This document shows positions 46,802-62,636 of a stretch of 64,000 nt of DNA, piece by piece. How positions within the stretch are numbered: position 1 is the stretch's first letter; each line of letters begins with the position of its first letter. Source of the DNA: Halobacteriovorax marinus SJ (GTDB taxonomy: Bacteria; Bdellovibrionota; Bacteriovoracia; Bacteriovoracales; Bacteriovoracaceae); NCBI RefSeq assembly GCF_000210915.2, contig NC_016620.1, positions 992,001 through 1,056,000 on the forward strand, given 5' to 3'. A model generated the notes under the pieces. The model was not told the DNA's origin, searched no databases, and saw only the letters and a list, made by a program, of their open reading frames with translations. The translations under genes and the position numbers were made by a program.

Positions 46802-48046
46802 CTATTTTTTTCTTAAGTATTTTAGGAAAAATAGTGCTCTCTTATGTTTTTTTGAAAAGTATCTCTGAGATTGGTAGATACCATTGTGTCCTGAAAAGTA
46901 GAAACTACTATAACAAGCAATAAAGGCGTACGGAGCAATTTGTATACCAAATGTTTCGATGGCCATAATAATACATGCAATCGGTGCGTTGGATGCTCCT
47001 GCAAAAACGGCTACAAAGCCAAGAGCTGCAACAAGTTCAAAAGGGATTGGGCCAAAACCTCCTAGAAAGCTTCCTAGAGTTGCTCCAATAAAAACTAGAG
47101 GCGTGAATTCTCCTCCTTTAAATCCAAAAGAGAGAGTAAGGGCAGTAAATATCAATTTTAAAAGAGGTACACTCCAATGCATTGGTTGAACTAGTGATGT
47201 TTGAATTGTCTCTAAGCCAAGTCCTGCGTAGAGAAAAGAGCCTTCAATGTTATAAAGGACAATAATAAGCAGTCCTCCTAGAAACGGTCTTAGTGGAGGA
47301 TATTGAATAAATCTCTTTATAGCTTTAGTTAAAAGGTGAGTAGTTTTAGAGAATAGATTTGCACTGACTCCAAATGCAATTCCAAAGAGAATTAGATAAA
47401 TTAAGTACTGGAAATGGAAGGTTGGTATTTCAACAGATGGATAAAGTGTGTGGGGAACTTTGAGTAGGTGAGTTGTCTGATAGCCTATGAAAGAAGCAAT
47501 TAAGCATTGGAAGAAAGCGTAGAGTCTTAACTTTCCAACAGTGATAATTTCCATTCCAAAAATTACACCTGCCCAAGGAGCTGAGACGGCAGCGCCAAGT
47601 CCTGCTCCCGAGCCCGCAATTAATAATACTCTTCTTTCATATTTAGAGAGCTTGAAGAAGTGTGAGATTCGATCAGAGAGAGCGCCACTCATTTGTACTG
47701 CTGTTCCTTCTCGCCCAGCTGATCCTCCAAATAAGTGAGTCAATATTGTTCCAAAGAGTACAAAGGGAACCATTCGCAGAGGCAGGACTTTCTTTGGAGA
47801 GTGAATTTCATCAAGGATTAAATTATTCCCTTTCTCTGCCTCACCAGCGAATTTATAATAGATTAGACCAATAAAGAATCCTGCTATTGGAAGAAAATAG
47901 ATTAGCTCATGATGATCTTTTCTATAAGCAGTTGCAAGAGATAATAAAGTTAAGAATAGTGCTGAACTTAAACCCGCCATTAATCCTGATAGAGTACTTA
48001 AGAATACCCATCTTGAAACTTTATATAAATTAAACTTATTAAACAT
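46802..48046 (-). CDS. ClC-family chloride channel/antiporter
   Basis: About 414 residues and ten or more membrane helices. Selectivity-filter motifs are GGSAGREGTAVQ, GAGLGAAVSAPWAGVIFGME and GFKGGEFTPLVFIG. The helix-terminal GREGP motif appears as GREGT. The proton-pathway Glu (GREG) is kept, so antiport is possible. The open frame extends 16 codons further to an ATG at 48094 that lacks a site; the ATG at 48046 has AAGG 8 bases upstream. It is convergent with LtrA (10-bp gap). Confidence 0.9.
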   Translation of the reverse strand: MFNKFNLYKVSRWVFLSTLSGLMAGLSSALFLTLLSLATAYRKDHHELIYFLPIAGFFIGLIYYKFAGEAEKGNNLILDEIHSPKKVLPLRMVPFVLFGTILTHLFGGSAGREGTAVQMSGALSDRISHFFKLSKYERRVLLIAGSGAGLGAAVSAPWAGVIFGMEIITVGKLRLYAFFQCLIASFIGYQTTHLLKVPHTLYPSVEIPTFHFQYLIYLILFGIAFGVSANLFSKTTHLLTKAIKRFIQYPPLRPFLGGLLIIVLYNIEGSFLYAGLGLETIQTSLVQPMHWSVPLLKLIFTALTLSFGFKGGEFTPLVFIGATLGSFLGGFGPIPFELVAALGFVAVFAGASNAPIACIIMAIETFGIQIAPYAFIACYSSFYFSGHNGIYQSQRYFSKKHKRALFFLKYLRKK

Positions 48047-48121
48047 TCTCTTAGCCTTTTTTCTATTATAAGGGCTAAAATAATAATTCGTCATTTATTG
48101 AATAGGATTATTATTAAAAGT

Positions 48122-53111: not shown

Positions 53112-56100
53112 ATGGAGTTCAAATTGAATTATTTGCTTAAAGTCACTCTAGTACTCGTACTTTCTCTCAATATTCATGCAACTAATAAATGTATAAAAAG
53201 TGAAGTCCTGTCTCTTAACGATACGGTTGTAGGAAATATAGAGCACAGAATTGTTGGAATTAAAAATGTTCTCAGTGGTAAAGGGGGAGATAGCTCTCTA
53301 ATCTGGAATGTCTTTGGAAATGACTTCGACTTTAATAGGTCTGATGAATATATATCTAAACTAGAGACAATAAACTCAAAGTCTAGGGGAATATCTGAGG
53401 AGTATGAGTATCTATCAAATTGCTTAAAGGAATTAAAGTTAACTAAGAGAATGGCCCAGCTTGAAAAACTCTCTATAGAATATAATAACTTTAAAGTACA
53501 ACTCTTTAAAAAGAATAAGGCCCTTAATAATTCAATAAAGCTAAATATTGATTCAAATAGCTCTATTCCTTCATTGGCCAAAGAGATCGATGAAGAGTTT
53601 ATTGTTCTGGAGAAGAGTAAGAGAGATATAGAAAAGGAGTTGGCACAAAATGAGTCAAAAACCTTAATAGATTCTAACTCAAAAGAAGTCGTATTCTATC
53701 AAAACTCTCTGCTTAAATTTAAGTTAGATTTAATTAAGACGAGGATACTCTTTAATAGAAACCTACAACAGAAAATTGAATACTTTAATTTGAAAAGTTT
53801 AAAGCTATCAAATCTTTCTTCAAATTATGAAGAAAGAGATACTGAAACTATTGAGGCACAATTTGTTGAAGTTGAAAAGATTTGGAAAGAGGTCACTAAG
53901 CAAAACTTCTATGATTTAATTAAAGGATCTTTATTCTTTGATATTCCAAGAGTACCAGGGGTTTTTACTTCAAAAAGAAATGTTGAAAGTGAGATTAGAG
54001 CGACCTTAGAGACCGAGAGAAGTAAAGTTAGTACTTTTAGAAAGGAGTCTATCTCTGATCTAACTAAGAAGAAAGAAGAAGAACTAAAGCTATTAAATAA
54101 TTTATTAATTCAAATAAACTCCCTTCGAAGTAATTATTATAATAAGTTAAGTTTTAGCTTTTTATCTGGTCGATTTTTTACTTCATCTTACTTAAGTTCT
54201 TTAAAGAATGAAATATATGCATCTCCTTATCGTTTACTGAACTATGTTTATTCTAAGTATCTCTTCGTGAATGAAAAACTCTCTTTAGGGAGGGATGGAA
54301 TAACGGATTTAAGTTTATTGCTCTTTAAATATATGATGATCATCTTAGGTGTCTTTAGCTTTAAATTGGTTCTTCATAAAATTTATGATTTCTTAGAGAA
54401 AAAGAATAGAGGACTTGTTTCAAAGAGAAAGCGCTCGGAGTTCTTTAGCTACTTAACGACAATTTGGAATAAGCATAGTGATAACTTCTACAGTATTTCA
54501 TGGCTATTTTTGTTATTTGTACTATCTCATTTTGAACTATTAAATAATATATCAATTATATTGAATATCTTTATAATTCTAATTGTTGCCAAGATCATAA
54601 GGTCCCTTGTCATTCTCTTCCTTAGTACAGTTTCATCAATAGACTCTAGAAATTATAGAAGCTTTAAATTGAAGGCCGAGGGAACAGCTGGACGATTCGC
54701 AAATATTTACCTTGTATATTCCTTAATCATGGTTCTTTTAAATCTTACAGTTGGTAAGGTTTATATTTATTCAATCGTAAAGTTTGTTGCAATCATCTAC
54801 TCACTATATCAAGTCATCGAAACATCTTCTGTATGGTCAAAGGAATTTAGTACTTATACGGAAAAGAAGTTTTCTGGAGTCATTGTAGATAAGATTGAGC
54901 GCTTTTATAAATTCTTACCATCGAAGATTCAGGGGATCTTTAGTTTTCTCTTTATCTCCATTTTAACAATCGTGAATATTTTTATAAGAATGACGGAAGA
55001 CTTCGCAATTTCTAAGAAGATTTCTGCAAATCTATTTAGAAAGCAAGTGGAGAGTGTAGAAGTTGAAGAGGGAGCGAGTGAGCAGATTCCTAATGAATAT
55101 AAGGAGAAGTTTACTTTTAACTCTCTCGATGTAGAAGAGCACTATGTAAATCACACATCTGAAATTGAAGAGTCAATCTGTAATGAGATTGTAGAGTGGA
55201 TAGATGAGAAGTCCGAGGAGCACTCTGTCGTTGTCTATGGAGACAAGGGAATAGGGAAGACGACGCTTCTTAAAAAAGTTATTAGGGATATGGAGGGGAG
55301 ATATACTGACGAGTTAAGTTGTGTGTACACCAAAGTTCCTGCTAAAACCATTGATAGAGAGAAGGCCCATACTTTTATCGTTAACGCTCTCGGATTGGAG
55401 GAGAATGGCTCCTTTGATCTCTATAAGCTAGATAAGATGCTAGAGAAGAAAACAGTTCTTGTTATAGATGAAGCTCAGAACTTATTTCTATCCCATACGA
55501 AGGGTTTCTCTGCCTATAATGGACTTCTTAATATGATTAATCTGAGTACTGAGAATATCTTTTGGGTCCTATCATTTAATAAGTATAGTTGGCTCTATTT
55601 AGATCGAGCATTTGGTCGCAGCCAGTTCTTTAGAAATATTTTTCCTCTTAAGGGATGGGATGATACAGCTATAAAAGAACTTATTTTTAAAAGGCATCAC
55701 AGTTCAGAGTACAAACTCTCATATGATCTTTTAATTAATGCAACGAGATCTCAAGATGAGATGGATCGCTACACAACAGTAGAGTCGAAGTTCTTTAAGC
55801 TACTGTGGGAGCTCTCAAGAGGAAATCCTAGGGCAGCTCTCTATCTCTGGTTAACATCACTTTCTAGAAGAAATAGTAAGACATTTAATGTGCATATACC
55901 TAAGGATGCTGACTTAGATAGTTTGGACAAATTAGCTGACGATATATTCTTTGTGATTGCCTCTGTTTTAAAACATGAAAATCTTTCTCCCAATGAAATA
56001 GAGAGTACTACAAACTTACCGAAGGGAATTGTTAGAAACGCAATCAAGGTTGGACAAGAGAGAAACTTCTTTTTTAAAGATAAACATGGAAGATATATGA

Positions 56101-56168
56101 TTGAGATATCTTCCCAATACGGACTTATTAAGTACTTAAAGTCGAAGAATTTTATATATGGATACTAA
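53112..56168 (+). CDS. membrane protein with MscK-like N-terminal half and C-terminal P-loop ATPase
   Basis: 1018 residues. A signal peptide (1-23) is followed by a long periplasmic helical/coiled-coil region to about 390, then about six membrane helices (402-425, 462-476, 480-508, 529-548, 549-570, 607-626). From about 660 a cytoplasmic AAA/STAND-type ATPase follows: Walker A GDKGIGKTTLL near 709, Walker B TVLVIDEAQNLF near 780, Arg-rich helices, and a winged-helix-like tail (LSPNEIESTTNLPKGIV). The N-terminal half resembles the coiled-coil sensors of large MscS-type channels, but the MscS pore is encoded by the next gene, which overlaps by 11 bp. TTG 53124 with GGAG upstream is an alternative start. 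Confidence 0.75.
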   Translation: MEFKLNYLLKVTLVLVLSLNIHATNKCIKSEVLSLNDTVVGNIEHRIVGIKNVLSGKGGDSSLIWNVFGNDFDFNRSDEYISKLETINSKSRGISEEYEYLSNCLKELKLTKRMAQLEKLSIEYNNFKVQLFKKNKALNNSIKLNIDSNSSIPSLAKEIDEEFIVLEKSKRDIEKELAQNESKTLIDSNSKEVVFYQNSLLKFKLDLIKTRILFNRNLQQKIEYFNLKSLKLSNLSSNYEERDTETIEAQFVEVEKIWKEVTKQNFYDLIKGSLFFDIPRVPGVFTSKRNVESEIRATLETERSKVSTFRKESISDLTKKKEEELKLLNNLLIQINSLRSNYYNKLSFSFLSGRFFTSSYLSSLKNEIYASPYRLLNYVYSKYLFVNEKLSLGRDGITDLSLLLFKYMMIILGVFSFKLVLHKIYDFLEKKNRGLVSKRKRSEFFSYLTTIWNKHSDNFYSISWLFLLFVLSHFELLNNISIILNIFIILIVAKIIRSLVILFLSTVSSIDSRNYRSFKLKAEGTAGRFANIYLVYSLIMVLLNLTVGKVYIYSIVKFVAIIYSLYQVIETSSVWSKEFSTYTEKKFSGVIVDKIERFYKFLPSKIQGIFSFLFISILTIVNIFIRMTEDFAISKKISANLFRKQVESVEVEEGASEQIPNEYKEKFTFNSLDVEEHYVNHTSEIEESICNEIVEWIDEKSEEHSVVVYGDKGIGKTTLLKKVIRDMEGRYTDELSCVYTKVPAKTIDREKAHTFIVNALGLEENGSFDLYKLDKMLEKKTVLVIDEAQNLFLSHTKGFSAYNGLLNMINLSTENIFWVLSFNKYSWLYLDRAFGRSQFFRNIFPLKGWDDTAIKELIFKRHHSSEYKLSYDLLINATRSQDEMDRYTTVESKFFKLLWELSRGNPRAALYLWLTSLSRRNSKTFNVHIPKDADLDSLDKLADDIFFVIASVLKHENLSPNEIESTTNLPKGIVRNAIKVGQERNFFFKDKHGRYMIEISSQYGLIKYLKSKNFIYGY

Positions 56169-56979
56169 TATTGGAAATTTGATTTTTACCTTCTTTAAAG
56201 TAGATAAGATCTTCTTATTCATTTTTTTGATCGTTCTCATTGTAGTCTTTATCAGAGTTGTAAATCTCTGGTCTGAAAAGTTTCAAGAAAAACTATCTGG
56301 AAAGAGACTTCTTATCTTACAAGTGACAACAGTCTTTTCTTTTGCAACTTATCTCTTAGGAACTTTAGGGGCATTTTATTTTGTTTTCAGACCTTCTAAA
56401 GAATTACTTCTAACTGTTGGTGGATCTGCTGCTGTTGCTTTTGGTTTCGCTCTAAAGGACTTAGTTGGTTCTGTAATCGCTGGCTTTATTCTTCTCTTTG
56501 ATCGTCCGTTTCAAGTTGGAGACAGAGTGAGCTATGGCGATAGTTATGGAGAAATTAAGAGCATTGGTCTTAGGTCAGTGAAGTTACAAACACTCAATGA
56601 TGATACAGTAACCATTCCAAATTCTAAGTTTCTCACAGATACTGTCGCTAGTGGAAATAGTGGGGCTTTAGATATGATGATTGTAACGACTTTCTATGTC
56701 TCTATTCATGAAGATCTTGAGCGAGTAAAGAAGCTTCTCCATGAAGTTGTTATAACGAGTCGATTCGTTTTCTTAGAAAAACCTGTAACAATTATTTTTG
56801 AAGAAGTTCCACTGTCAAATGACTTTGTCGTAAAAGTAAATGTAAAGGCCTATGTTTTAGATGTTAAATTTGAAAAATTATTTCTAACTGATATCACGAT
56901 TAGAGGGAATAAAATCCTTAAAGAGAATCATATTCTTAGACCTGGCTCTACTCATATTAATGAAGTAAAAACCACATAA
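56158..56979 (+). CDS. MscS-family mechanosensitive channel
   Basis: 273 residues. Two N-terminal helices precede the pore helix (GGSAAVAFGFALKDLVGSVIAGFILL) and the MscS beta domain (RPFQVGDRVSYG, IKSIGLRSVKLQTLNDDTVTIPNSKFL). The C-terminal alpha/beta cage is present. It would form a heptameric inner-membrane channel that opens under tension. It is translationally coupled to the ATPase protein, so it probably forms the pore of a joint complex. Confidence 0.92.
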   Translation: MDTNIGNLIFTFFKVDKIFLFIFLIVLIVVFIRVVNLWSEKFQEKLSGKRLLILQVTTVFSFATYLLGTLGAFYFVFRPSKELLLTVGGSAAVAFGFALKDLVGSVIAGFILLFDRPFQVGDRVSYGDSYGEIKSIGLRSVKLQTLNDDTVTIPNSKFLTDTVASGNSGALDMMIVTTFYVSIHEDLERVKKLLHEVVITSRFVFLEKPVTIIFEEVPLSNDFVVKVNVKAYVLDVKFEKLFLTDITIRGNKILKENHILRPGSTHINEVKTT

Positions 56980-57221: not shown

Positions 57222-59837
57222 ATGAGTGCTGCCCTCAAAAGCGTTGATGAATATAAGAGTAATTTAAGTGGAGATTTAGTTTCTGCCTTTGACGCTGTAA
57301 ATAGAGTTCTTGCTGTTGTTGAATTTTTACCAAATGGGGAAATACTTAGTGCAAACGAAAACTTCTTAAACCTCTTAGGTTTTGAGAAGGTTGAAGATTT
57401 AATAGGAAAACATCATAGAGTTCTTTGCGAAGATGATTATGTGAGTTCTGAAGTTTATAAGAACTTTTGGGCAGACTTAAGAAGAGGTGAGCCATTTGTT
57501 GGAGATGCTCTTTATAAAGGTAGAAATAATAAAGATAAATGGGTTAAGTGTACGTATAGCCCAATCTGTGATGAAAATGGTGAAGTGATAAAAATTCTTT
57601 CTTTTGCTAGAGATATTACTAGGGAAAAAGGAATTGTTTCTGAGCTTGAAGGTAAGATGACTGCGATCTCAAAAGCACAAGCAGTTATTGAATTCAACCT
57701 TGATGGCACAATTATTAAGGCCAATGATAACTTCTTAAATACTGTAGGTTATTCAATGGATGAAATAGAGGGAAAACATCACAGAATGTTCTGTGTTCCT
57801 GATTATATAAATAGTTTTGAGTACGAAGAATTTTGGGCAAAGCTTAGAAGAGGTGAGTTTGATACTGGTGAATACAAGCGTATCGGAAATAATGGAAAAG
57901 AGGTTTGGATTCAAGCTTCATATAATCCAATTTTTGGTCATGATGGAAAGCCATATAAAGTCGTAAAGTTTGCGACTGATATTACTGAATCTAAACTAAA
58001 GAATTCTGAGTTTGAAGGGAAGATGAATGCTATCTCTAAAGCTCAAGCTGTAATTGAATTTAACTTAGATGGTACTATCATTACTGCGAATGAAAACTTT
58101 TTAAAGACACTTAATTATGATTTAGGCGAGATTGAAGGTAACCACCACAGTATGTTCTGTGAGAGTGAATACTCAAGTTCTCCTGAGTATAAGGCATTTT
58201 GGGAGAATTTACGAAAAGGTGAGTTCCAGTCTGGTGAATATAAAAGACTTGGGAAAGGTGGAAAAGAAGTCTGGATTCAGGCCTCATATAATCCAATCTT
58301 TGATTCTGAAGGAAATCCATTTAAGGTCGTAAAATTTGCTTCAGATACTACAAGTGTAAAGCTTAGAAATGCTGAAACTGAAGGAAAGCTTAATGCCATT
58401 TCTAAAGCTCAGGCGGTAATTGAGTTTAATCTTGATGGAACAATTATCACTGCAAATGATAACTTTCTTCAAACGCTTGGTTATGACATGTCTGAAATTG
58501 AGGGAAAGCATCACCGAATTTTCTGTGAAGGGAATTATTCTTCAAGTGCTGAATATGCAGCATTTTGGGATAAGTTAAATAGAGGAGAGTTCGAATCTGG
58601 TGAGTATAAGCGTGTAGCGAAAGGTGGAAGAGAAGTTTGGATTCAAGCCTCTTACAATCCAATCTTAGATATGGATGGCAGACCATTTAAAGTCGTTAAG
58701 TATGCTTCAAATATTACGTCAGAAAAATTAAAAGCCGAGGCGATTAGTAAGTCACAGGCCGTAATTGAATTCGATCTAAATGGAAATATTAAATATGCTA
58801 ATGAAAATTTCTTAAAAACTGTAGGTTACTCTCTTGATGAAATCGTAGGTAAGCATCATAGAATTTTCTGTGACGGTGACTATGTTAAAACTTCTGAATA
58901 TGAGAATTTCTGGGCAGATCTTAGAAAAGGAAATCCATGTAGTGGTAGATTTAAAAGATTTGATAAAGATCATAACACTATTTGGTTACAAGCAACATAT
59001 AATCCAAATTTCGATAATATGGGTGTTCCTTGTGGTGTAACAAAATTTGGTGCAGATATTAGTACTCAGGTTGAAGTTGAGGAAACAGTAACGAAGCTCT
59101 CTGAGGAGTTTACAAATAATACTAGAGATATATCTTCTAAGGCCACAGATGTTGCGACAGGAGCTCAGGCCCTAGGTGCTACAACAGAGGAGATGAATGC
59201 TTCTATCGAAGAGTTGACTGCTTCAATTAACGCTATTGCCGAAAACTCTAAGAATACAGATGCTGTAGCAAAGACGACACATCATGAAGCTGAAACTGGC
59301 GCTCAAGCAATTGCTAAGGCCATTGAGTCAATGGATTTAATTAGTAAATCTTCAGAAGATATTAGCGAAATTGTAAAAGTTATAAGTGAGATTGCTAATC
59401 AAACGAACTTACTCGCATTCAATGCTGCAATTGAGGCGGCGAGAGCTGGGGAGCATGGTTTAGGTTTTTCAGTTGTTGCGGATGAGGTGAGAAAGCTTGC
59501 TGAGAGATCTTCACAAGCTACAAAGGAAATATCAAAACTAATTAACGAAAGTGTTAAAAGAATATCTCAGGGGAGTGAAATCTCTAAGCAAGCAGGTGTT
59601 GCTTTTGGAAAAATTGTTGAAGGTGTTAATAAGACAACTCAGGCCATCTCAGAAGTATCTTGTGCCGCTGAGGAGCAATTGGTTGCGGCCAGAGAGATAA
59701 GCTCTGCAATTCAAGAAGTTGCTGAACAGACTGAAACATCAGCCTCGGCATCAGATTCAATTGCAAGTGCTACAAGAGAGCTCTCAGAAGGTGCTATTGA
59801 GTTGAAGAGAACTGTAGATAAGTTCAAGGTTGCGTAA
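57222..59837 (+). CDS. cytoplasmic methyl-accepting chemotaxis protein with five PAS domains
   Basis: 871 residues with no membrane helix. Five PAS units occupy about residues 12-635, each with the core GxIxxANENFL, GKHHRxxC, FWxxLRRGE, W-x-QASYNP and VVKFAxDIT; units 2-5 are very alike. Each has a conserved Cys after HHR. The signalling hairpin is standard ([21 protein letters not shown], then [12 protein letters not shown]). In this family cytoplasmic PAS receptors sense redox, oxygen or small ligands and control CheA. AGGAG precedes the start. It heads the operon with cheR, cheD and a triple CheW. Confidence 0.93.
57657..58733 (+). repeat. tandem repeat units encoding PAS domains 2-4
   Basis: Units begin at 57657, 58023 and 58389, the first two spaced exactly 366 bp (122 codons). 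They share long near-identical protein stretches ([34 protein letters not shown]). The fifth PAS unit, from about 58734, is more diverged, and the first unit most of all. Recent duplication within the gene is implied. Confidence 0.85.
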
Positions 59838-59839
59838 GT

Positions 59840-60670
59840 ATGATGTCTTTACCGATAGAAGACCTCACTGATTCCAATTTAAAGAGTGTCATCTCCTTCG
59901 TTCATAGTGCTACTGGGATTACTATCCCAGAGCACAAAAAGACAATGATACAAAGAAGATTATCTCCTAGATTAAAGTTTCATTCTTTAACAAGTTATAG
60001 TGATTACTTAAAGCTTGTTAAATCTGATTCTGAAGAAATGGTTCAATTTATTAATATGGTTACAACAAACGAGACAAACTTCTTTAGAACTGAAAGAGTT
60101 TGGGAATATTTTGAATGTACCTTTCTTCCTAGCTTTCTTGAAATGAATCCCGGAAAGACTTTAAAAGTTTGGTCTGCAGCCGCTTCTACGGGCGAAGAAG
60201 GGTATAGTATTGGTATGTGCTGCGAGGACTTTAAAAGGAGACAGTCAACTTCATTTGATTACTCTGTTCTTGGAACTGATATTTCTAGTCGTGTGATTGA
60301 TTTGGCCACTAGTGGTCGCTATAGTGGTCGAAATATTGATAATATTAAAAAGAAGTCTATAGACCGCTTTAATCGGTTTTTTAATAAAGTCGGAGATCAA
60401 CACATTGTATCTTCGATATTAAGATCTAAGGTTTCTTTTGCTACTCATAATTTATTCAATACTCTAAAGAGTGATGAGTTATTTGATATCGTCTTTTTAA
60501 GAAATGTATTAATTTATTTTTCTACTGAAGACCAAAAGAAAGTTATCCATCATCTGATTAAAAAGATGGCACCTGGTGCGATCCTAGTTGTTGGAGAGTC
60601 TGAATCATTATCAAACTTAAATACCGAACTTGAGTTCATTTCACCTCTTATTTATAGGAAGAGAGTTTAA
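59840..60670 (+). CDS. cheR: chemotaxis protein methyltransferase CheR
   Basis: 276 residues. The N-terminal helical domain (FVHSATGITIPEHKKTMIQRRLSPRL) recognises the receptor. The SAM-binding domain has TTNETNFFRTE, KVWSAAASTGEEGYSIGM, VLGTDISSRVIDLA and FDIVFLRNVLIYFS. It methylates receptor glutamates for adaptation. The gene starts 2 bp after the receptor stop; the next ATG one codon later is equally possible. It is followed immediately by cheD. Confidence 0.96.
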   Translation: MMSLPIEDLTDSNLKSVISFVHSATGITIPEHKKTMIQRRLSPRLKFHSLTSYSDYLKLVKSDSEEMVQFINMVTTNETNFFRTERVWEYFECTFLPSFLEMNPGKTLKVWSAAASTGEEGYSIGMCCEDFKRRQSTSFDYSVLGTDISSRVIDLATSGRYSGRNIDNIKKKSIDRFNRFFNKVGDQHIVSSILRSKVSFATHNLFNTLKSDELFDIVFLRNVLIYFSTEDQKKVIHHLIKKMAPGAILVVGESESLSNLNTELEFISPLIYRKRV

Positions 60671-60671
60671 T

Positions 60672-61139
60672 TTGGCACTGAAGATTGTACACGTGAAAAT
60701 TGGAGAAGTTAAAGTCGCGAGAGGTGAAGAGCTTCTCAAGGCAACGCTTGGTTCTTGCGTAGGAATCTCATTCTTCGATACGAAGACTTCAAGATGTGCA
60801 TTGGCCCATTGTTTACTTCCAACTTCAAATGGGGGCTACGGCATTGGTGCAAAGTATGTAAATCAAGCGATGGATTCATTAGTGGCGTTAATGAAAGTGA
60901 GAGGCAGAGAGCAGAGTGACTTTATTGTTTCATATGCTGGTGGTGCCAATATGATGAACCAAATTGCTCACAATAGAGATAATGAAATTGGTTATAAGAA
61001 TTTAATGAAATTAAAAGAAATATTGTCTAGCTATGATTTTAAAGTGAAAGAGCTTGATTGTGGAGATCATTGTGGAAGACAGATGAGTATATTAAGTCCA
61101 ACTGGTGAAGTTCAGGTTATGAGACTTGACGAGGGTTAA
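60672..61139 (+). CDS. cheD: chemotaxis receptor glutamine deamidase CheD
   Basis: 155 residues from a TTG that follows AGGAAGAGAG and gives the family N-terminus (KIVHVKIGEVKVARGEELLK). The nucleophile is Cys in LGSCVGISFFD and the His in ALAHCLLP, as in the deamidase family. It converts receptor Gln to Glu and can be regulated by CheC. It starts 1 bp after the cheR stop. The longer open frame back to 60630 would overlap cheR and is less likely. Confidence 0.93.
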   Translation: MALKIVHVKIGEVKVARGEELLKATLGSCVGISFFDTKTSRCALAHCLLPTSNGGYGIGAKYVNQAMDSLVALMKVRGREQSDFIVSYAGGANMMNQIAHNRDNEIGYKNLMKLKEILSSYDFKVKELDCGDHCGRQMSILSPTGEVQVMRLDEG

Positions 61140-61142
61140 GCT

Positions 61143-62636
61143 ATGGAAGCTCTTAGTAGTAATGAAATAATTGAAAACTATATTGAAAAATTAATTTACG
61201 GCTCATTTAAAGTTGGCTCGATGGAAGTTGCTCTAGATGTAAAATTAGTTCAAGAAGTCGTTAATTATCCTGAGACTGTGACTAAGATGCCTCTGCCAAC
61301 ACCATATCTAGAAGGTATTTTTAATTTAAGAGGGGCGATTATTCCTATCGTTAATTTAAGAGAACTCTTAGGTCTTGGGGAAATTGAAATTACAGGAACA
61401 GAGAAAGTTGCCATCGTTGAATGTCAAGGTGCGAAGATAGGTCTAGTCTTTGATTCTACAAGTGAAATCTTACGAATTTCAAAAGAAGATATAGTTCCTC
61501 ACTCAAAAGAGAATGCTCAAGATGCATTTATGTCTGGCTGTATAAAGTTACATGAAGACTCGAGAATGTTGCATGTTCTGAATATAGATTCACTTGTCAA
61601 AATTTCAAATATTTCTGACTTACTAACAAAGCAAAAAATAAGCACAGGAGTTCTAACACATAAGGATTTCCAGAGAAATATGAAGAAATGTATTTCTTTC
61701 TCTGTTGGAAGCTTGCAAATGAGTTTTGAGATAACTGGAATTAATGAAGTCATTAAAGTTACTGAGTTAAAAGAGAGCCATGTCCAGTGTGATTTATGTC
61801 TTGGGGTGGTTGAGTTAAGAGGCCTAGTGATACCTATTATAGATATTAACTTCTATCTCGAAGGGACGGGTTATAGATTATCAGATGTTGTAGATCAAAA
61901 AATCATTATTTTAAGAAATCAAGAGATTTGCATTGGTCTTCTTGTAGACTCTGTGGAGAGCATTCTCTCTTTTTCAGAAAACGATCTTATGCCAATCCCT
62001 ATTTTTAGAGAGAAATATAAAGAGCTATTTGCTGGATGTATTTCCAAAGAAGGCGAAGGGGATATTGTCTTATTAGATCATCGAGTTATTCTAGATAATC
62101 CTGAAATTATAGAAATCTCTAAAGGTCATGATCTTATCTATAATAAAGATTATAAAGATGAAAACTCACAGAGAAAGCAAGTTATCAATCAGTCTTTCAT
62201 TTCATTTACTCTGGGTGATATGTATGGATTTGAAATAGGAGATATTAGAGAGATCATTAGTTATCCCAAAGAAATTTCTCCAAGCCCTGGGGCATCCTCT
62301 TACATAAAAGGCGTTTTAAATCTTCGAGGAGATGCCGTTACTATTGTAGATACTAGAAAGCTATACTCTATGAATAGTGTTGAAATTGACTACGAAAAAT
62401 CTAAGATTTTAATTTTTGAGGCCGGCGAGAAATTAGTAGGGCTTATTGTTGATTCTCTAGAGAGTATTGTAACGATAGATATAAACTCTAAAATTATTTT
62501 GCCAAAGATTGTAACTAGGGATCTTGAATCTAAGTTTGGAAAAGACCTTAAAGAAGTGATTACTTACAACGCCGGGGAAGAGAAGGACCGTGTGTTAACA
62601 GTTTTAAATGTCGAAAATATTGCTTTGCGTTTTTAG
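61143..62636 (+). CDS. protein with three tandem CheW domains
   Basis: 497 residues with three CheW-like units: about 15-150 (VQEVVNYPETVTKM, GIFNLRGAIIPIVNLRELL), 180-315 (INEVIKVTELKES, GVVELRGLVIPIIDI) and 345-490 (IREIISYPKEISPS, GVLNLRGDAVTIVDTRKL). The second is the most diverged. CheW domains couple receptors to CheA; three in one chain could bridge several receptors or kinases. It follows cheD by 3 bp. No CheA is in the window. Confidence 0.92.
   Translation: MEALSSNEIIENYIEKLIYGSFKVGSMEVALDVKLVQEVVNYPETVTKMPLPTPYLEGIFNLRGAIIPIVNLRELLGLGEIEITGTEKVAIVECQGAKIGLVFDSTSEILRISKEDIVPHSKENAQDAFMSGCIKLHEDSRMLHVLNIDSLVKISNISDLLTKQKISTGVLTHKDFQRNMKKCISFSVGSLQMSFEITGINEVIKVTELKESHVQCDLCLGVVELRGLVIPIIDINFYLEGTGYRLSDVVDQKIIILRNQEICIGLLVDSVESILSFSENDLMPIPIFREKYKELFAGCISKEGEGDIVLLDHRVILDNPEIIEISKGHDLIYNKDYKDENSQRKQVINQSFISFTLGDMYGFEIGDIREIISYPKEISPSPGASSYIKGVLNLRGDAVTIVDTRKLYSMNSVEIDYEKSKILIFEAGEKLVGLIVDSLESIVTIDINSKIILPKIVTRDLESKFGKDLKEVITYNAGEEKDRVLTVLNVENIALRF

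Follow-up and report, generated by a model that had tools for sequence, protein, structure and literature searches.

Channels of the MscS family are regarded as valves that membrane tension opens, and in MscS of Escherichia coli a C-terminal 'IPFPQ' segment forms the beta-barrel that closes the cytoplasmic cage. MscK (KefA) of E. coli carries a large helical N-terminal domain and many membrane helices ahead of its MscS core, all in one chain, and PMC9653487 describes it as a K+-dependent heptamer that has 11 membrane helices and forms a ring in the periplasm. Kef, to which PMC10224563 assigns a nucleotide-binding KTN domain and an ancillary subunit, is an ion efflux protein under a nucleotide-binding cytoplasmic module. 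Here we describe a pair of genes from a 64,000-nucleotide stretch of the Halobacteriovorax marinus SJ genome (contig NC_016620.1, positions 992,001 to 1,056,000; hereafter the window; genome of 3.44 Mb in two contigs). The parts of the pair follow the same order as in MscK; unlike in MscK, the sensor-like part continues into an AAA+ ATPase and a separate, overlapping gene encodes the pore. Conserved in at least five phyla, the pair co-evolves as a two-gene unit with an MscS subfamily dedicated to it, and the findings point to an undescribed kind of channel, namely an MscS channel with its own AAA+ control subunit. Our literature search, which did not extend to subscription journals and preprints, found no published description of such an MscS/AAA+ system, in agreement with an earlier note made from the sequence of this stretch, whose author knew of no system of this design.

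The upstream gene (window positions 53112..56168, + strand) encodes a protein of 1018 amino acids, whose relatives show at most 74% identity to it. From N- to C-terminus it consists of a helical N-terminal domain, a membrane domain, an ATPase and a winged helix. The downstream gene (56158..56979, + strand) encodes a 273-residue MscS protein, and the open reading frames confirm the 11-bp overlap between the two that the earlier note had read (56158..56168, + strand). Genome searches for relatives used the ATPase alone and the neighbours were inspected afterwards; samples of phyla other than that of the window were built around centre genomes. The ATPase was present in 35 of 97 genomes of the window's order and in 51 of 290 genomes sampled from its phylum, and elsewhere in 39 of 198 Bacteroidota, 16 of 398 Pseudomonadota, 39 of 112 Myxococcota and 11 of 117 Cyanobacteriota genomes. 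This gave 183 matches (one Bdellovibrionota gene, in G048, is split over contigs and counted twice), two of which were cut by a contig end, leaving 181 to be scored for neighbours. An MscS gene adjoined the ATPase on the same strand and within 300 bp in 177 of these (Bdellovibrionota 53/53, Bacteroidota 40/40, Pseudomonadota 16/16, Myxococcota 58/61, Cyanobacteriota 10/11), the order being reversed, with MscS upstream, in five pairs, all from Bacteroidota. Among the first 30 relatives found, 29 share the MscS neighbour, the exception (L017) being cut by a contig end. A separate scan of GTDB species returned the same arrangement at 34 of 36 loci, some of which repeat genomes of the other sets; named strains among them belong to Alcanivorax, Aquimarina, Polaribacter, Gracilimonas, Rhodohalobacter and Thalassotalea. 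In the sole plasmid match, from Caulobacter sp. NIBR2454, the two genes are annotated 'ATP-binding protein' and 'mechanosensitive ion channel' and overlap by 4 bp.

The same linkage was seen from the side of the channel. Partner-type MscS (profile A2, E ≤1e-40) occurred in 35 of the 97 genomes of the order, the same 35 that hold the ATPase, and was absent at this threshold from the 62 ATPase-free genomes. An ATPase that regularly stands without MscS was therefore not seen, and the split design with a dedicated MscS partner that the earlier note had proposed was borne out by both adjacency and joint presence. Over the 177 pairs, the pairwise distances of ATPase and MscS were correlated, with r 0.76 for all pairs taken together and 0.74-0.98 inside single phyla. 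Where a Myxococcota genome had two or three pairs, the MscS was a better fit to its own ATPase than to that of the paralogue in 39 of 42 swap comparisons. The co-evolution of these paralogous pairs goes beyond species history alone.

The partner protein belongs to the MscS superfamily as judged by its PF00924 beta-domain (E 2.4e-19, 69.7 bits against a cut-off of 20.2), and tension gating is predicted for it; it resembles E. coli MscS in combining this domain with a short three-helix pore. MscS genes are scarce, with seven in the genome of the window and 113 across 15 genomes. The window MscS tops the seven genomic ones against the partner profile (7e-142, compared with 3.5e-28 for the next), and the other six have no ATPase neighbour of this type within the stretch examined. 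In contrast to E. coli MscS, partner proteins lack an IPFPQ-type C-terminal segment, carry a signature of their own and are tied to an ATPase. An IPFPQ-like C-terminal motif was found in 0 of 177 partner MscS and in 16 of 35 other MscS (37 control loci minus two that hold the ATPase), while the signature K-x-Y-x-x-D-x-x-x-E in the last domain (K or R at the first position) was found in 135 of 177 partners and in none of the 35 others. In the window, a pattern search placed this signature, as KAYVLDVKFE, in the C-terminal domain of the MscS (56845..56874, + strand). MscS proteins were called with an iterated profile, and when the calls were checked 176 of the 177 partners had E ≤1e-10 (L171, 9e-5); the same profile matched 6 of 1183 other open reading frames of at least 150 residues in the same loci. 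At L032, L035, L049, L050 and L360 (7844-8782), the Caulobacter plasmid included, the partner MscS has another MscS-type gene after it.

As to the ATPase, the best Pfam match of the 1018-residue protein was AAA_22 (residues 702-820, E 4.3e-10). NB-ARC, NACHT and ATPase_2 were weaker, NB-ARC reaching 27.3 bits against a cut-off of 23.5 and the NACHT and nSTAND models staying below their own cut-offs. By VIA-align, the modelled ATPase and winged helix (residues 656-1014; 55077..56153, + strand) came closest to ORC/Cdc6 (2qby; Z 16.7, 289 residues, root-mean-square deviation 7.0, span 659-1005) and TnsC (9g0f; Z 15.1, 261 residues, root-mean-square deviation 4.5), families missing from the VIA list not being counted as excluded. 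Searched by sequence with the ATPase profile, the PDB yielded nothing closely related, the best match being ClpB (E 0.0012); the 60 matches listed out of 74 did not include MscK. The module shares with ORC/Cdc6 and TnsC an AAA+ core with a winged helix. In contrast to these proteins, the ATPase of the pair is membrane-tethered or channel-linked, has often lost its P-loop and was not seen linked to replication or transposition. With the STAND NTPases (NB-ARC, NACHT, nSTAND) it shares weak profile matches, variable N-terminal modules and a GNP-type motif; unlike them, it shows no repeat sensor region, has an ion-channel partner and has often lost the hydrolysis residues. The earlier description of the ATPase as AAA/STAND-like is modified in that its fold lies nearer to ORC/Cdc6 and TnsC than to a typical STAND protein. 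The winged-helix tail and the intact nucleotide motifs named in that description were recovered: Walker A is GDKGIGKT (residues 710-717; 55239..55262, + strand), with G710, G713, G715 and K716 invariant in alignment A1, and Walker B is VLVIDE (residues 782-787; 55455..55472, + strand), with D786 invariant and E787 kept in at least 90% of the same alignment. This glutamate is the catalytic one, and the protein may hydrolyse ATP.

The AlphaFold model of the whole protein (pLDDT, the predicted local distance difference test, 82.5; 19-sequence alignment) begins with an N-terminal helix followed by about 370 residues of long helices. Residues 3-19 are hydrophobic and signal-like (53118..53168, + strand; hydropathy and model), which predicts export, and the long-helix domain (residues 25-393; 53184..54290, + strand) is probably periplasmic. 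Six candidate membrane helices follow at residues 394-627 (54291..54992, + strand) ahead of the ATPase. When the N-terminal model was compared with all PDB chains by Foldseek, two structures of E. coli MscK ranked first and second, with non-significant E-values of 0.68 and 1.0. VIA gave Z 8.2 to MscK (234 residues, root-mean-square deviation 9.0), which lies in the range of chance helical-bundle matches. In a profile comparison by hhalign against 31 MscK-type sequences the probability was 92% (E 6.1e-7, 156 columns, MscK columns 562-723), compared with 4.8% and 8.6% for reversed controls (E 0.004-0.008) and at most 0.7% for CPA, SLC12 and MscS families. Sub-alignments against the same MscK region gave 13% for Bdellovibrionota, 33% for Pseudomonadota and 94% for Myxococcota, the last with a reversed control of 44%; runs with -sc 4 were discarded because the reversed control also scored 96%. 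In our reading the N-terminal half is probably, though not certainly, a remote homologue of the membrane region of MscK, and its likeness to the MscK sensor, suggested earlier, is moderately supported, by the profile match and against the Foldseek values and the uneven sub-alignments.

The N-terminal input module varies: some relatives have an MscK-like one, others a membrane-free one or none at all, and others again a fusion to CPA2 antiporters or SLC12/K-Cl-type cotransporters. Judged by hydropathy, with N-termini partly cut in many loci, 3-8 membrane helices precede the ATPase in 50 of 54 Bdellovibrionota and 14 of 16 Pseudomonadota, 0-2 helices in 36 of 40 Bacteroidota, and at least nine in 26 matches. 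Cyanobacterial ATPases are short, all 11 having 378-427 residues. Since these minimal members are ATPase-like proteins of about 400 residues standing beside MscS, the ATPase module itself appears to be the partner of MscS. Sixteen long proteins compared with Pfam comprised eight with PF00999 (Na/H exchanger), four with AA_permease/SLC12 and four with neither (L063/L132 being one of these last four), and two of the proteins matched a K-Cl cotransporter model (E 1.9e-120 and 1.3e-98, below the curated cut-off). In L239 the ATPase and a divergent MscS are followed by a stand-alone CPA2-type antiporter gene, recognised by eye and with 13 helices predicted in its product. Short Bacteroidota ATPases start about 90-100 residues ahead of the ATPase domain (L145, 1240-2583; L174, 4291-5685), and L145 has no ATG, GTG or TTG within its first 140 codons. 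A search for the N-terminal domain of such proteins on a separate upstream gene found no such gene.

Taken together, we estimate a probability of roughly 60% that the products of the two genes make up a single hetero-oligomeric ion channel, composed of an MscS-type pore and a dedicated AAA+-fold subunit, with docking, gating and a role in homeostasis included in that figure. Unlike the unit, its dedicated subfamilies and their co-evolution, which are observed, the contact between the proteins, the gating, the nucleotide control and the physiological role are what we infer. In such a channel, the ATPase-winged-helix module would dock on the cytoplasmic part of the pore, at the place where the usual IPFPQ segment is missing, and the N-terminal module, MscK-like in the window, would sit around or above the pore and supply the input. 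In the window lineage, with both Walker motifs intact, bound nucleotide might set how easily the pore opens, and in lineages that lack the P-loop the protein may serve, independently of nucleotide, as a subunit for gating or assembly. Release of ions or solutes would then answer to the state of the membrane or envelope plus the energy or nucleotide state, and the physiological role would be osmotic and ion homeostasis. In principle this resembles Kef, and CPA2 fusions occur in the ATPase family of the pair; the differences are that KTN is Rossmann-type rather than AAA+ and that Kef has no MscS pore. A broader reading, which we consider less likely than not, is a widespread and so far undescribed class of nucleotide-switched channels in which MscS pores have an AAA+ module of the ORC/TnsC clade docked on them as a general regulatory subunit with interchangeable inputs (MscK-like sensors of tension or envelope state, CPA2 antiporters, K-Cl-type cotransporters), one complex coordinating solute release with ion transport and the energy state of the cell; in design this would be a bacterial counterpart of ATPase-regulated channels such as K-ATP. 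If the two-subunit channel is real, an MscS valve would in many bacteria be controlled by another protein and, in lineages like this one, probably by a nucleotide. The origin of the sensor parts of large MscS-family channels would become directly testable, as would the coupling of turgor release to ion transport and energy in bacteria, and a large set of proteins, one member of which is annotated merely 'ATP-binding protein', would gain a function.

Several observations weigh against the two-subunit channel or limit its scope. The pattern [GA]xxxxGK[ST] is present in 105 of 183 ATPase relatives (Bdellovibrionota 49/54, Bacteroidota 27/40, Pseudomonadota 4/16, Myxococcota 25/62, Cyanobacteriota 0/11), so that 78 members, some of them fragments, lack a P-loop motif, and a glutamate follows the Walker B aspartate in only 34 of 183, divergent members aligning poorly. 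ATP hydrolysis is therefore not a general mechanism, and the ATP control proposed in the earlier note fits the window protein, with its intact P-loop, and not the family at large. As far as the alignments tell, the constant element is the AAA+-fold subunit with its MscS link, while catalysis varies; nucleotide control is likely in the window lineage and not universal. Topology is a further difficulty. Positive charge marks the loops after membrane helices 1, 3 and 5 (mean K+R 8.7, 4.9 and 6.4, compared with 0.2 and 1.0 for the others), which fits an N-terminal domain outside the cytoplasm, yet six helices after an exported domain would leave the ATPase outside as well. Loop charges and helix count together suggest that the hydrophobic stretch 608-627 may not cross the membrane, or that the topology is otherwise unusual; the two parts of the earlier proposal, a periplasmic coiled coil and about six helices after it, are not tenable together at face value. 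The motif counts in MscS must also be read with care, since the partners are mutually related, so that the counts are not independent events, and the controls are partly the best-scoring PF00924 matches (of 113) and hence not a random sample. Finally, four members have no adjoining MscS (L212, wider locus L264; L226, wider locus L265; L234; L262), nor has a Gemmatimonadota fusion (L063/L132), whose membrane domain (L063) had no match in PDB, Pfam or NCBIfam and whose 'CPA-like' label accordingly rests on motifs seen by eye. In L262 (1753-4254, - strand) the ATPase frame continues into the C-terminal part of a pore-less MscS, either a deletion or an assembly error. In L234, highly repetitive frames with repeats of the type GSLALTDLVRWRSPIWF lie downstream of the ATPase, where MscS is expected.

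Other explanations of the pair were considered against the same evidence. Strict one-to-one pairing and co-evolution would also agree with an AAA+ protein that serves as an assembly or insertion factor, that is a chaperone, of its MscS partner rather than as a gating subunit, and this idea tolerates the loss of the P-loop; a chaperone would nevertheless be expected to keep its ATPase site, and the large MscK-like and transporter N-terminal modules would stay unexplained, so that we consider it unlikely. We regard as rather improbable a STAND-like immune or cell-death unit, in which the ATPase would detect an infection or damage to the envelope and then open the MscS pore, depolarising the cell. 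Myxococcota are rich in such systems and often carry the pair-type ATPase, the distribution is patchy even within the window's order, one copy lies on a plasmid, and AAA_22, NB-ARC and NACHT profiles match. However, PADLOC gave the ATPase a weak P-loop match only (mad8, E 0.0012) and the six neighbours tested (five window neighbours and a ClC gene) no more than weak P-loop matches, a scan of 50,697 phage records returned no match, close relatives preserve the synteny with chemotaxis and other genes, and many members have lost the P-loop. The fusions to CPA2 and SLC12 transporters likewise favour osmotic and ion homeostasis over immunity, and of the two roles offered in the earlier note, a tension or turgor channel and STAND-type signalling through a pore, homeostasis is nearer to the former. 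The same fusions point to transport as the output and thus speak against a reversed arrangement, with MscS as the sensor and the ATPase as the output, tension being relayed through ATPase and winged helix to a cytoplasmic target such as DNA or chemotaxis proteins. The winged helix, the nearness to the DNA-binding ORC/TnsC folds and the chemotaxis operon adjoining the pair in the window would suit this arrangement; among the order members examined, however, chemotaxis genes stand beside the pair only in G007, and we hold it to be very improbable.

The genes that flank the pair are conserved in close relatives only: they are common to G007 and in part to G009, and four other members keep the pair only, except for one weak PAS-MCP-like match. 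In the window, positions 57222-62636 encode a protein like a chemoreceptor, in which five PAS domains are combined with an MCP signalling domain, followed by genes that by eye are CheR-, CheD- and CheW-like. A link of the pair to chemotaxis was dropped, as among six relatives this PAS-MCP/CheR/CheD/CheW group stands beside it in the nearest one (G007) alone; in the other five no chemotaxis genes adjoin the pair, and two of these show, elsewhere within 20 kb, a weak PAS-MCP-like match. On the other side, 5 kb from the pair, lies the gene of a ClC-type chloride channel or antiporter (46802-48094, - strand), recognised by eye and shared with G007 and G009 only among the six relatives.

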